Shown here one piece after another: positions 7,586 through 11,558 of a DNA stretch of 11,558 bases. The stretch's first letter is position 1, and each line of letters opens with the position of its first letter. A program made the position numbers and the translations under genes. The stretch is from Gammaproteobacteria bacterium (GTDB lineage: Bacteria > Pseudomonadota > Gammaproteobacteria > GRL18): NCBI GenBank assembly GCA_013139395.1, contig WTAX01000008.1, positions 1 through 11,558 of the forward strand, in the 5' to 3' direction. The notes beneath the pieces were generated by a model. That model was not told where the DNA came from, did not search any database, and saw nothing but the letters and a program-made list of their open reading frames with translations.

Positions 7586-8476
7586 ATGAAAAAAATTGGC
7601 GTGATTGGAATACCCGGCAAATGGTCAACAGAGACTTTAGCCGATGCCATCGAACAACGAACAGGATTTCGCCTTGTTATTGATATGAGTCGAGTCAGCT
7701 TAGATTTATCTAATAACGAATTAAACTACTTAGATGCAGATAAAAAAATAAATCTATGTGATTTAGATGGGTTGATCATCAAAAAAATTAGTGCTGAATA
7801 TAATCCCAATACTCTAGACAGACTAGAGTTGCTGCTCATTGCTCAAGCTCAGGGAGTTAAAATATTTAGTGCGCCAGAAAAAATCATGCGCTTAATTGAT
7901 CGCTTAAGTTGTACCGTTATGTTACGTAAAGCTGATTTACCGATGCCCGACACCATTGTGACTGAAGATATTAATGAAGCAATTGAAGCAGTTAAAAAAT
8001 TCTCCAGTGCTGTTTTTAAACCACTTTTTTCAACCAAGGCACGAGGAATGGTCATCATTGATTCCAGCAAACCTATTGAACAGATAAAGAGTGAAATTAA
8101 ACAATTTCAAGCAGAGCATCAAATGATGTATATTCAGAAAAAAGTCAATTTACCAGGACAAGATCTTGGCCTGGTTTTTTTAGGTGGTCAATATCTGGGG
8201 ACTTATGCCAGGGTCAATCAATCCGGCACCTGGAACACGACTATTAATAGTGGCGGCCGATATGAAAAGTTCACGCCTTCTGAAGAAATTATCAGTATTG
8301 CACAACGAGCACAGGATCTTTTTTCAATGGATTTTACCACCGTTGATATTGCTGAAACAGATAATGGCCCAATTGTATTTGAAGTATCTGCCTTTGGCGG
8401 TTTTCAGGGAGCATTAGATGGGATAGGCATCAAAGCAGCCGAGTTATATGCTGATTATGTGCTTAATAAGATGTAA
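7586..8476 (+). CDS. GAK-system ATP-grasp enzyme (RimK-like fold)
   Basis: ATP-grasp ligase-like enzyme of the family NCBI calls GAK-system (grasp-amphipathic-kinase), related to RimK-type carboxylate-amine ligases; the substrate is unknown. The 296 residues open with MKKIGVIGIPGKWSTETLADA. Then follow DGLIIKKISAEYNPNTLDRLE (61-81), FSAPEKIMRLIDRLSCTVML (94-113), LPMPDTIVTED (118-128), the ATP-binding FKPLFSTKARGM (144-155, with K145 and K151), and FEVSAFGGFQG (265-275), whose E266 with D254 probably binds Mg. S268 stands where many ATP-grasp enzymes have Asn, as I recall being usual for this family. AGGA lies 8 bases before the ATG. A histidine phosphatase, a metallophosphoesterase and a PhoU-like gene follow on the same strand. 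The last codon and the stop lie at the edge of an inserted MITE: the G of ATG and the TAA belong to the element. Confidence 0.87.
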   Translation: MKKIGVIGIPGKWSTETLADAIEQRTGFRLVIDMSRVSLDLSNNELNYLDADKKINLCDLDGLIIKKISAEYNPNTLDRLELLLIAQAQGVKIFSAPEKIMRLIDRLSCTVMLRKADLPMPDTIVTEDINEAIEAVKKFSSAVFKPLFSTKARGMVIIDSSKPIEQIKSEIKQFQAEHQMMYIQKKVNLPGQDLGLVFLGGQYLGTYARVNQSGTWNTTINSGGRYEKFTPSEEIISIAQRAQDLFSMDFTTVDIAETDNGPIVFEVSAFGGFQGALDGIGIKAAELYADYVLNKM

Positions 8477-8661
8477 CTACTCAGCGTGTTTAGATTTTGC
8501 CCAAATTCTAGGCATTTTTGCACGGCCCTTTATGGGCGCCACAGGCGTTGTGTGAGCATATATAAATATGTGACCATTTCCAGGTGCCCCTTGAGGGTAG
8601 AGTACAAAAATAACGACGAAGTTGGGTAAAAGATGAATACGCTGAGTAGTTACAATAAGAT
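8465..8661. mobile_element. 181-bp palindromic MITE-like element with IS66-type ends, plus 8-bp target duplication
   Basis: The element spans 8473-8653 and is bounded by perfect 15-bp terminal inverted repeats, GTAACTACTCAGCGT and its complement. Imperfect symmetry continues inward to about 36 bp, and further matches follow (ATTTTTG-AC, CCCT…GGGC-CC) to a palindromic centre CATATATAAATATG at 8557-8570, which is exactly the midpoint. AATAAGAT flanks both ends (8465-8472 and 8654-8661), a perfect 8-bp target duplication. GTAA termini and 8-bp duplications are known features of IS66-family elements, so it is probably a non-autonomous relative moved by an IS66-type transposase. There is no transposase inside. 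The intact target duplication points to a fairly recent insertion. Confidence 0.9.
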
Positions 8662-8690
8662 TTAATTATACATAAAATAGACTTAACACT

Positions 8691-9407
8691 ATGGCAAGAA
8701 TCATAGCCGCGTTAATACGACATGGTGATTATCACCAGCTAAAAGATACACCCAGTGCCTGGCAGCCTTTTCCTTTAAATGAAGCAGGAAAAGATCATGC
8801 TCGCTCAGCAGCACAAGACATCCATAACACACTGATTCAACAGAATTGGCTGCTGCACCCGGCCTGTGATTCATCACGACTATTAAGAGCATGGCAAACA
8901 GCAGAAATAATTTGTGAGCAATTAAAAAATACTCAGTCTCATAAAAGAGAGCACGTTATTACCATTGACAGCTTTGATGCATTAGCAGAACGAAGTGTTG
9001 GCAGCGCAGCTAACTTAACTCTTGCTCAGATTGAGGAAATAATTCATAGTGATCCTCGTTTTGATTCCTTACCAGAAGATTGGAAATCAAACAGCCATTT
9101 TTGCCTGCCTTTACAAGGGGCTGAATCCCTAATGAATTCAGGGAAACGTGTTGCCGATCATATAACAAAAAGCCTGTCTGATTTACAAAAATCAGTTAAA
9201 CAGCCTACACTAAAACTATTTGTTGGCCATGGTGCTGCTTTTCGACATGCGGCCTATCATTTAGGCATACTGTCATTTGAACAAATAGCCCGGTTAAGTA
9301 TGTACCACGGCCAACCCGTATTTATAGAACGACGAGAAGATGGTTCATGGACTCATATCGCAGGACAATGGAAAATTCGAGAAAAAAACACCCAGTACAC
9401 TGATTAG
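8691..9407 (+). CDS. SixA-like histidine phosphatase
   Basis: Cytoplasmic histidine-phosphatase superfamily enzyme (branch 1) that should form a phospho-histidine intermediate; its substrate may be a phosphorylated protein or small molecule. The RHG motif is ALIRHGDYHQ (7-16) with R10 and nucleophile H11; SSRLLRAWQTAE (61-72) provides R63; E100 in LAERSVG is the likely proton donor; and H180 in LFVGHGAAFRHA is the second catalytic His. All four key residues are present, so it should be active. At 238 residues it is longer than E. coli SixA (about 160). No strong ribosome binding site precedes the ATG. Its distance from the ATP-grasp gene is caused by the MITE; without it the gap would be about 25 bp, so the two were once tightly coupled. 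Its stop codon lies in the first unit of a tandem repeat. Confidence 0.88.
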   Translation: MARIIAALIRHGDYHQLKDTPSAWQPFPLNEAGKDHARSAAQDIHNTLIQQNWLLHPACDSSRLLRAWQTAEIICEQLKNTQSHKREHVITIDSFDALAERSVGSAANLTLAQIEEIIHSDPRFDSLPEDWKSNSHFCLPLQGAESLMNSGKRVADHITKSLSDLQKSVKQPTLKLFVGHGAAFRHAAYHLGILSFEQIARLSMYHGQPVFIERREDGSWTHIAGQWKIREKNTQYTD

Positions 9408-9570
9408 GACTATAGGAAATTTATTTCCGAAATAGTCATTATCCTGGTAATTAGGACTATAGGAAATTTATTTCCGTAAATAGTCATTATCCTGGTGACT
9501 AGGAATATCGGAAATTTATTTCCGCAAATGGTTATTATCCTGGTGATTAGGACTTTAGATTGTTATTTCC
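9403..9570 (+). repeat. tandem repeat, three 47-48-bp hairpin-forming units plus a degenerate fourth
   Basis: Units lie at 9403-9449 (47 bp), 9450-9497 and 9498-9545 (48 bp each); a partial unit (9546 to about 9570) keeps ATTAGGACT and TTATTTCC. Each unit contains GGAAATTTATTTCC, a 6-bp inverted repeat with a TT loop, and in units 1-2 this core is enclosed by GACTAT/ATAGTC, giving a stem of about 12 bp with a small internal loop. Unit 3 has lost part of the outer stem but extended the inner one to CGGAAAT/ATTTCCG. The array starts at the phosphatase stop codon and ends before the metallophosphoesterase ribosome binding site. It may act as an RNA processing, stability or attenuation element. 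There are no spacers, so it is not CRISPR. Confidence 0.88.
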
Positions 9571-9602
9571 ATAACCTTAAATATTCATATAAAGAGCAAT
9601 TA

Positions 9603-10964
9603 ATGATTCCAGAAAAATATAATAAATATTTTAATCGCTATTATGGTAAACAATGGATTAATGCCAGATTACCATCCAAACCACAAGTATGGTTGATGGG
9701 GCCTTACGAGCAATCCATAAAAAAAGATACTAAAATAACCAGGACTATCGCCTGTGAAATAAAAGCTCATCTTGAAAGTGATTCCTGGGTCTGGCCAAAT
9801 CAGACTATCTATTTTTTTTCTGATATGCATGCTGATGCCGATGCATTTATTGCTTCACTAGTCGCCTCAGGCGGTGTCAAAAAAACGGGCTCAAAAGATA
9901 AACAATTTAAGCTCACGGCTGAGGGAAAAAAAGCGCGCTTTATTCTTGGTGGAGACTATTTTGATAAAGGCCCCAGTACCTTACGACTTTTGGATGTTAT
10001 TAAACTGCTTATCGATAAAGGTGGCGATGTTGTTATTTTAGCAGGCAATCATGATACCAGAACATTAATTGGCATTCGTTCACTATCCAGGAGACACATC
10101 TCCACAGAACATTTTTTTGTTCGAATGGGATTTAAACCTATCTCTCTTTTTAAAGAAATATATGAGCGCTACTTAAAAGGAAAAAAAGGCAAAAAATATA
10201 AAGCTCCTGGTATTAAGAAGTGTAGAAAAAAATTATTTCCTTCTAAAAATTGGGTAAAAAAATTTCCAGATATTGCCAGACAGCAAGTATCCCAGATTGC
10301 TCTACAAAAAGATATGAAACGAACCATTGAAAAAATTGATAATTTTGAACAATGGTATACTGATGAAAATATGAGTCTCAAACAAATATATTCTGCAGTC
10401 AAAAAATGGAAAGAATTATTTTTATATCCAAAAGGTAAATATTACTGGTTTTTTAAGCATCTTCAGTTAGCCAGCAAAGAAGGATCATTTTTCTTTGTTC
10501 ATGCGGGTGTCGATGATTTAAGTGCCAAAATGATTCGAAATCATGGTATTAAAAAGCTTAATAAACAATTCAGAAAAAAACTAAAATCTGAATTATTTGA
10601 CCTTTATTATGGGCCATTAGGTAATATGATTAGAACGAAATATCGTAACTGTGATCGTCACTTTACTAAAAAAGGTGCCTTAATGATGTATAATTCAGGT
10701 ATCAATACGATTGTTCATGGACATAGAAATTTATATTACGGACAACGTATCATGCTGCGTAAAGGACTCTTTAATTTTGAGTGTGATACCTCTTTAGACA
10801 TTAATACTCGAAAAAAAGAAGGGATTGTTCATGGTCCGGGAGCATCAGTTACTATTATTCATCCCAATAAGATTATTTTAGGAATAAGTAGTGATTATCC
10901 ATATATTAAAGTGTTTGAGCCCGAATTAACCCTAAAGCTGTGTGAGCTATATAAAGAGAGATGA
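9603..10964 (+). CDS. calcineurin-like (PPP-type) metallophosphoesterase with large Lys-rich insert
   Basis: Dinuclear-metal phosphoesterase related to the PPP/calcineurin group. Metal and catalytic motifs appear in order: FSDMHADADAF (72-82; D74, H76), LGGDYFDKGP (115-124; D118, D121), AGNHD (147-151; N149, H150), FVHAGVDD (298-305; H300) and VHGHRN (371-376; H372, H374). The first motif is SDMH instead of the usual GDxH, and DKGP replaces DRGP. Between GNHD and FVHAG lies a segment of about 140 residues, rich in Lys and aromatic residues, longer than in typical family members. The 453-residue form starts at ATG 9603 with AAGAG 7 bases upstream. A longer frame from GTG at 9495 would translate the tandem repeats and is rejected. 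It follows the histidine phosphatase and precedes the PhoU-like gene by 7 bp, so it is likely cotranscribed. Substrate unknown. Confidence 0.86.
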   Translation: MIPEKYNKYFNRYYGKQWINARLPSKPQVWLMGPYEQSIKKDTKITRTIACEIKAHLESDSWVWPNQTIYFFSDMHADADAFIASLVASGGVKKTGSKDKQFKLTAEGKKARFILGGDYFDKGPSTLRLLDVIKLLIDKGGDVVILAGNHDTRTLIGIRSLSRRHISTEHFFVRMGFKPISLFKEIYERYLKGKKGKKYKAPGIKKCRKKLFPSKNWVKKFPDIARQQVSQIALQKDMKRTIEKIDNFEQWYTDENMSLKQIYSAVKKWKELFLYPKGKYYWFFKHLQLASKEGSFFFVHAGVDDLSAKMIRNHGIKKLNKQFRKKLKSELFDLYYGPLGNMIRTKYRNCDRHFTKKGALMMYNSGINTIVHGHRNLYYGQRIMLRKGLFNFECDTSLDINTRKKEGIVHGPGASVTIIHPNKIILGISSDYPYIKVFEPELTLKLCELYKER

Positions 10965-10971
10965 AATACTT

Positions 10972-11558
10972 ATGACTATTTTCAATGAAGTAAATGAAAA
11001 TTTACAATTTCTGATCTCTGAAGTGTCACTACAAGTCACCAATCTGCAACTTTATTTAAAAAACCCATCCAAAGACCTGGCTAAACACATCCTGGACAGA
11101 AGCGGCTATTTTTATAATTTGAAAGTACGTATACAAAATACCTGCAGTCGAATTATTGCCCAGAACAAAGAGCCTGAATCTGTTAATAGAAAATTAAAAG
11201 CACTTGACTCTATTGCTTCAAGTTTAACAGAGATAGCTGAATTATGCGGAAATTGTGTTTCTAACATTCAATCCTGTAATAAAAAGAAATATATTTATAA
11301 TAAAAAATATAATGACATGTTAAATGATGTCAAAAAACAAATCAGTAAAATTGAACTCAGTATTTATGATGATAATACTAAGTTAGCTTTAAAAATTGGC
11401 CAGGTTCATAAAAAATTCAGGAAAATAAATCACCAACAGCAAAAACAATATAGTCGCAAACTTTCCAGAAAAAAATCTGTCAAAAAATTAATGACATTTG
11501 TTAATGTGATGAACACATTAACACAAATGGGAAAAGTTCTATTAAACATTAGTGAGAC
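10972..11558 (+). CDS. PhoU-like helical protein (3' end outside window)
   Basis: The frame is open from ATG 10972 to the window edge, giving 195 codons. It starts 7 bp after the metallophosphoesterase stop; GAGAG about 11 bases upstream is a possible ribosome binding site. The protein is all-helical in appearance, very rich in Lys, Asn and Ile, with no signal peptide. Two segments resemble PhoU helix patterns (compare the PhoU consensus LERIGDxxxNIA): LDSIASSLTEIAELCGNCVSNI (78-99, split around E87) and TFVNVMNTLTQMGKVLLNISE near the visible end. The metal-binding E/D residues of PhoU are only partly kept. C92, C95 and C102 form an unusual CxxC-x6-C cluster. PhoU domains normally sense or relay phosphate state with transporters or kinases. 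If the two-repeat reading is right, little of the protein is missing. The PhoU assignment is by pattern only. Confidence 0.6.
   Translation, partial: MTIFNEVNENLQFLISEVSLQVTNLQLYLKNPSKDLAKHILDRSGYFYNLKVRIQNTCSRIIAQNKEPESVNRKLKALDSIASSLTEIAELCGNCVSNIQSCNKKKYIYNKKYNDMLNDVKKQISKIELSIYDDNTKLALKIGQVHKKFRKINHQQQKQYSRKLSRKKSVKKLMTFVNVMNTLTQMGKVLLNISE

Follow-up and report, generated by a model that had tools for sequence, protein, structure and literature searches.

What system do the genes at the right-hand end of contig WTAX01000008.1 belong to, and what might that system do? This contig comes from the assembly of a gammaproteobacterium of lineage GRL18 (GCA_013139395.1), and the window of 11,558 nucleotides is the entire contig, in an assembly of 550 contigs that is 79% complete. 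From position 7586 to the contig end it carries four frames, all on the forward strand, which are the front (left) part of a gene cluster scattered through many bacteria, known in NCBIfam as the GAK system. Four of its families already have curated NCBIfam names (TIGR04354, amphi-Trp; TIGR04355, HprK_rel_B; TIGR04356, grasp_GAK; TIGR04357, CofD_rel_GAK), with GAK named as a system without an assigned function; TIGR04354 we take to belong to it by definition. The initial annotation of this DNA had described a one-strand run of an ATP-grasp gene, an intact histidine phosphatase, a PPP-like phosphoesterase and a PhoU-like frame, all of which are present. That observation is confirmed, and the case for it is better than was stated there, with one correction: the supposed phosphate sensor, judged by alignment, forms the N-terminus of a fusion of PhoU with a kinase. 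The cluster is most likely a phosphate-homeostasis module. The four genes are as follows.

7586 to 8476, forward strand: GAK-system ATP-grasp enzyme of 296 amino acids (TIGR04356, PF08443)
8691 to 9407, forward strand: histidine phosphatase, branch 1, of 238 amino acids (PF00300)
9603 to 10964, forward strand: PPP-type calcineurin-like metallophosphatase of about 453 amino acids (PF00149), in a frame open from 9495
10972 to 11558, forward strand: predicted PhoU domain at the N-terminus of a PhoU-kinase fusion, truncated where the contig stops, in a frame open from 10942

The ATP-grasp protein, on whose score against TIGR04356 the initial annotation had staked its GAK assignment, matches that model over its full length with 448.6 bits against a cut-off of 300, and so belongs to the family. 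The next-best NCBIfam models are MptN (157 bits, cut-off 350) and the RimK family, where the glutamate ligase model TIGR00768 gives 115.4 bits against a cut-off of 143.4; CofF follows lower down, likewise under its cut-off. Among solved structures, ligases of the RimK and LysX types come closest in sequence. In an alignment of 27 rows D254 and E266 are invariant, and the last position of the ExN motif, which in ATP-grasp enzymes normally carries an Asn with a role in the metal site, is a serine (Ser268) in 27 of 27.

Judged by their motifs, both phosphatases have intact active sites. The histidine phosphatase scores 54.8 bits against PF00300 (cut-off 21.7) and carries the RHG and second-histidine core of branch 1; its catalytic residues R10-H11-G12, R66, E100 and H180 show at least 90% conservation over 32 rows, and it does not qualify under the SixA, CobC or Pgm models. 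The PPP enzyme, whose true start is probably the ATG at 9603 by alignment with relatives, scores 43.8 bits against PF00149 (cut-off 21.5) and has the calcineurin-like metal motifs, with D110, H112, D154, N185, H186, D187, H336 and H410 identical in all 26 rows, the window included. The ApaH model NF001204 does not recognise it (20 against 176 bits). Numerous Arg and Lys positions are also invariant in its alignment, as would be fitting for a substrate rich in phosphate.

To establish how often these genes travel together, 398 Pseudomonadota genomes, our own included, were searched, with an E-value of 1e-40 or better counted as an ATP-grasp match. The ATP-grasp gene was found in 14 genomes (13 over the cut-off), the HprK-related kinase B over its cut-off in 14, plus two contig-end fragments (one in G125 that, with 198.9 bits, just misses the cut-off of 200, and one in G275), and the PhoU-kinase in 13. 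Every one of the 14 ATP-grasp genomes has a kinase B match and 13 have the PhoU-kinase; the remaining one, G125, has an ATP-grasp match without its first third and no fusion match. Kinase B stands without the ATP-grasp gene in two genomes (G231 and G275), each time at a contig end. Fisher's test gave p < 1e-21 for each gene pair, shared ancestry being ignored. Within our own family kinase B exceeds its cut-off in 10 of 24 genomes, and a search of relatives found the ATP-grasp gene over its cut-off in 14 of 96 genomes, including 10 of the 16 genomes of the genus; the nearest named relatives by this gene are gammaproteobacterial genomes, some of them from symbionts of marine animals such as Lucinoma.

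In all, 41 loci were examined, of which 27 were judged by us to be uncut, with no core gene truncated by the end of a contig (L032, L036, L038-L043, L045, L047, L050-L052, L061-L063, L065-L069, L071-L073 and L083-L085). The hidden Markov models applied per locus were trained on a first batch (the window and L031-L059); L061-L074 and L083-L085 lay outside that sample, but had been fetched through hits to kinase B, PhoU-kinase or ATP-grasp. The usual members are the PhoU-kinase (27 of the uncut loci), the ATP-grasp enzyme (27), kinase B (26), the amphi-Trp protein (26), the PPP phosphatase (24) and the histidine phosphatase (23), so that the phosphatases do recur beside the ATP-grasp gene in other genomes, as had been predicted; optional members are SixA-Nudix (11), CofD-like (9) and Nudix (8) proteins. 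A set can thus include as many as four genes for phosphohydrolases (histidine phosphatase, PPP, Nudix and SixA-Nudix). The usual order is PhoU-kinase, ATP-grasp, kinase B, sometimes SixA-Nudix, histidine phosphatase, PPP and amphi-Trp, while in the lineage of the window the ATP-grasp and phosphatase genes lead and the others follow (L036, L032, L034 and L035, the last two of which continue on separate contigs of their genomes, L075 and L076). The Nitrospirae locus L045 lacks PPP and histidine phosphatase but retains the PhoU-kinase, ATP-grasp, kinase B, amphi-Trp and CofD-like genes, and L041 consists only of the PhoU-kinase and ATP-grasp pair, with no kinase B match in its genome. A protein of 386-393 amino acids lies ahead of amphi-Trp in L045 (4842-6002) and in the Coatesbacteria locus L046 (1895-3076); the L045 copy (386 amino acids), the one tested, has no Pfam match.

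The cluster is also present, in the usual order, on complete plasmids from Qingshengfaniella, Pseudooceanicola and Tritonibacter, two of the three with a divergent CofD-like gene. Plasmid copies, a patchy distribution and the insertion of AAA and RloB-like genes into one cluster are what an anti-phage or other conflict system would show. We regard such a role as very remote, as eight of nine proteins (three from the window, six from the sibling L048) have no PADLOC match, and the Nudix protein alone matches one candidate PADLOC model, at 34 bits. The CofD-like genes bear on another explanation, a cofactor-like biosynthesis in which the CofD-like protein would add a phospho-acid moiety and an MptN/CofF-like ATP-grasp enzyme an amino acid, with the kinases and phosphatases in support. 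The ranking of MptN, the RimK family and then CofF behind the GAK model agrees with such a route, as do the CofD-like genes of 9 of the 27 uncut loci and the two plasmid records that label their product "GAK system CofD-like protein". It is nevertheless quite improbable: all three models stay under their cut-offs, 18 of the 27 uncut loci have no CofD-like gene (though some end shortly past the cluster), the CofD-like copy of L048, the only one scanned, reaches 255 against a cut-off of 340, and several phosphatases fit biosynthesis poorly.

The fourth gene of the window is where the initial annotation has to be amended. It had been read as a PhoU-like protein, and a PhoU domain is present (frame 10942-11556 against PF01895, 36.6 bits, cut-off 23.5); the protein does not stand alone. 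The fragment, whose true start is probably the ATG at 10972 by alignment with relatives, aligns to positions 1-195 of the fusion profile, and in the relatives the gene continues for some 350 residues as a kinase domain, whereas the window copy is interrupted by the contig end. With the PhoU-like gene being a PhoU-kinase fusion, the set contains three ATP-using enzymes. The domain has the PhoU fold, but against the stand-alone PhoU model TIGR02135 it gives 24.9 bits (cut-off 130.25). PhoU regulators carry an E/D-xxx-D metal motif in both repeats; the motif is missing from the window domain, and both repeats keep it in 2 of 56 rows.

Structural matches of the PhoU-kinase are for the most part small-molecule kinases. 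This bears on the main rival to the reading we favour, a modification of proteins or peptides in which the ATP-grasp enzyme would add an amino acid in the manner of RimK, kinase B would phosphorylate a small protein in the manner of HprK, and the phosphatases would reverse this; the amphi-Trp protein, with about 90 amino acids, is a natural candidate target of kinase B. The peptide-modifying kinase LxmK is also among the structural matches, and because of it our figures for the small-molecule and protein-modification readings were shifted by 0.02 each. We hold protein modification to be doubtful, if a serious contender: besides the predominance of small-molecule kinases, it leaves the Nudix enzymes and the phosphate-related neighbours described below unexplained, and no precursor-like peptide was seen, although no systematic search was made.

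An HprK-related kinase had been suspected past the right edge. The contig ends before its site, and siblings carry kinase B beyond the corresponding edge; the amphi-Trp gene, proposed for the same stretch, lies beyond that edge in siblings too, and a CofD-like gene would likewise fall past the contig end. Our own genome has a kinase B on a separate contig, C31 (374 amino acids, 309 bits). A foreign origin of C31 through contamination was considered and found unsupported: 14 of the 15 other genomes of the genus contain sequence matching parts of the 9,900-base query, and in the tree the C31 kinase falls, fully supported, into one group with the kinases of G004, G009 and G015. Two lineages of the cluster, unlike in gene order, exist in the genus, one in G004, G009 and G015 and the other in L036, L032 and the window; our own genome mixes them, with its ATP-grasp gene in the latter arrangement and its kinase B from the former lineage. 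It should be noted that the name HprK-related is taken from NCBIfam and backed by weak matches in the control genomes of Lactococcus and Caulobacter, which carry HprK; comparison of kinase B with solved structures by sequence gave no HprK match.

A tie to phosphate had been guessed in the initial annotation from the PhoU fold only. What points to phosphate homeostasis is the presence, in some genomes, of pst, CHAD and ppk genes next to the cluster. In our own genome the C31 kinase B follows pstSCAB and two phoU genes, ending a pst-phoU operon. In G004 the cluster begins beside a PstB fragment (its last 30 residues) and contains a phoU gene (182.6 bits, cut-off 130.25), with a 22-residue PstC-like start at the opposite contig end, and in G015 a PhoU remnant of 26 residues lies directly upstream. 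The GAK genes of G493 lie within about 26 kb that also hold PstS-, PstC-, PstA- and PstB-like genes, a fusion of PhoU with a low-molecular-weight phosphatase, a ParA-like ATPase, CHAD, two CNNM genes, CofD-like and Nudix genes, a further histidine phosphatase, a Na/Pi-cotransporter-PhoU gene and Ppk, with two more CNNM genes just beyond; the whole island (contig C123, L086 and L087) spans some 30 kb and has four CNNM-type genes in all. CHAD and a ParA-like ATPase lie within the cluster of G207, CHAD adjoins that of G247, and a Na/Pi-cotransporter-PhoU gene lies near that of G108. Such links were seen in only seven genomes and at none of the other loci, the flank tallies listing just the commonest families.

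These tallies covered near flanks, within three open reading frames (ORFs) of a GAK gene (147 proteins after 19 of 166 ORFs were dropped: six of L063 and three of L058, both close siblings, and ten short or doubtful frames), and far flanks (149 proteins; three of 152 ORFs dropped, two of L063 and one of L058). The 25 Pfam families listed of 192 in the near flanks include CHAD (3), Na/Pi-cotransporter (2) and CNNM (5), a list in which single phosphate genes were possibly missed; none of the three is among the 25 listed of 217 in the far flanks. A phmmer scan of both kinds of flank and of the C31 locus (L060) found CHAD and the Na/Pi-cotransporter in near flanks only, while the first 25 of 1059 NCBIfam families in the near flanks include no phosphate family and do list CorC/CNNM and LolD types. 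CHAD occurs in 27 copies in the 37 GAK genomes, three of them near GAK genes against 0.17-0.33 expected under uniform placement; with two of the three from one family, this enrichment is suggestive only. General links were tried and rejected: pstB (E 1e-80 or better, 37 GAK genomes) lies near GAK genes only in our own genome, at the C31 kinase B, and in G493, whose two PstB-like genes are under the family cut-off (the G004 end fragment was found otherwise), and ppk1 (E 1e-30 or better) is matched in 25 of the 37 and near GAK genes only in G493. The pst linkage is sporadic and we do not claim it as a rule. Genes for Mg/Co transporters (CNNM/CorC, MgtE) adjoin several clusters (flanks of L037, L038 and L049; L050, 374-1810).

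Such neighbours could also indicate direct handling of polyphosphate, with the enzymes attaching, trimming or sensing inorganic polyphosphate or polyphosphate-bound proteins. CHAD is a polyphosphate-binding domain according to an excerpt of PMC6537752; it stands with a ParA/MinD-like gene beside or inside the cluster at two loci (L069, 12790-15137; L086, 11900-14243), perhaps a pair for positioning polyphosphate granules, and by itself at a third. The presence of ppk in the G493 island and the invariant Arg and Lys residues of the PPP enzyme agree with this, and in the excerpted text of PMC8003754 the commonest genes downstream of ppk in prokaryotes include Nudix, MutT and histidine-phosphatase genes. 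Even so we consider it rather unlikely, given that 12 of the 37 GAK genomes have no ppk1 match and that the kinase fold is chiefly of the small-molecule type.

The best fit is a phosphate-linked circuit that adds phosphoryl groups to a small molecule and removes them again, to which we assign a probability of roughly 0.4. We propose a modification-demodification circuit on one common substrate: the PhoU domain would gate a small-molecule kinase acting on a hydroxylated compound, sugar-like or of another kind, the ATP-grasp enzyme and the HprK-related kinase may act next, on the kinase product or on a carrier protein, and the histidine phosphatase, PPP and Nudix enzymes would strip phosphoryl or pyrophosphoryl groups again. 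Directly observed are the gene set and its recurrence, the intact active-site motifs, the architecture of the PhoU-kinase and, in some genomes, the pst, phoU, CHAD or ppk neighbours; the common substrate, its small-molecule nature, the gating and the direction of each step are what we infer.

Elsewhere in the window, NhaD, DASS/CitMHS transporter, Zn peptidase and lolCE/lolD genes lie to the left of the cluster, and two repeats fall within it.

8472 to 8654, no strand assigned: insert resembling a miniature inverted-repeat transposable element (MITE), located between the ATP-grasp gene and the histidine-phosphatase gene, its inverted-repeat symmetry imperfect
9401 to 9558, no strand assigned: tandem repeat of 48 bp in 3.3 copies, around the 3' end of the histidine-phosphatase gene and in the spacer ahead of the PPP gene

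The MITE-like insert, of about 180 bp, has two further diverged copies (about 75%) elsewhere in the genome, and at its position the closest sibling, L058, has a gap of just 23 bp. Contig C31 has short repeats of its own at about 8136-8301 (about 165 bp) and 13946-14035 (about 90 bp), with several to many copies in our own and some sister genomes.

Compared with known systems, the window shares its ATP-grasp enzyme with the GAK system of NCBIfam, and kinase B, amphi-Trp and sometimes CofD-like genes adjoin it in relatives as in the named set; beyond the named parts, the PhoU-kinase, the PPP enzyme and the histidine phosphatase are almost as frequent, under generic names in the three plasmid records. 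No paper was found in the openly licensed PubMed Central literature for the GAK system, TIGR04356, HprK-related kinase or amphi-Trp by name, nor for a PhoU-kinase fusion. The recognition of this fusion as a usual member and of the cluster inside phosphate/polyphosphate gene islands in some genomes makes a named but functionless system directly testable, through a phosphate-dependent phospho-metabolite, and the phosphate-linked reading, if true, would mean a further, new level at which bacteria control phosphate. The ATP-grasp protein resembles RimK, LysX and MptN ligases in fold family and predicted ATP-binding core, but scores under their models and has Ser in place of the metal-site Asn of ExN. 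The fusion differs from PhoU regulators by its kinase, its low TIGR02135 score and its degenerate metal motifs; its kinase shares fold and catalytic residues with the 5-methylthioribose kinase/aminoglycoside phosphotransferase superfamily, but with 8-17% identity in the structural rows and a PhoU domain ahead. The eukaryotic inositol-pyrophosphate cycle (PPIP5K, Nudix pyrophosphatases), in which, according to the parts of the literature consulted, kinases together with histidine-phosphatase and Nudix enzymes govern turnover in phosphate homeostasis, follows a similar logic. It is possible, if unlikely, that GAK is its convergent bacterial counterpart, in which a PhoU-gated kinase and an ATP-grasp kinase would build a multiply or pyro-phosphorylated small-molecule messenger, erased by the histidine-phosphatase, Nudix and PPP enzymes, that sets phosphate uptake and polyphosphate storage; the GAK ATP-grasp enzyme is nearest to ligases, and the comparison is one of logic, not of descent.

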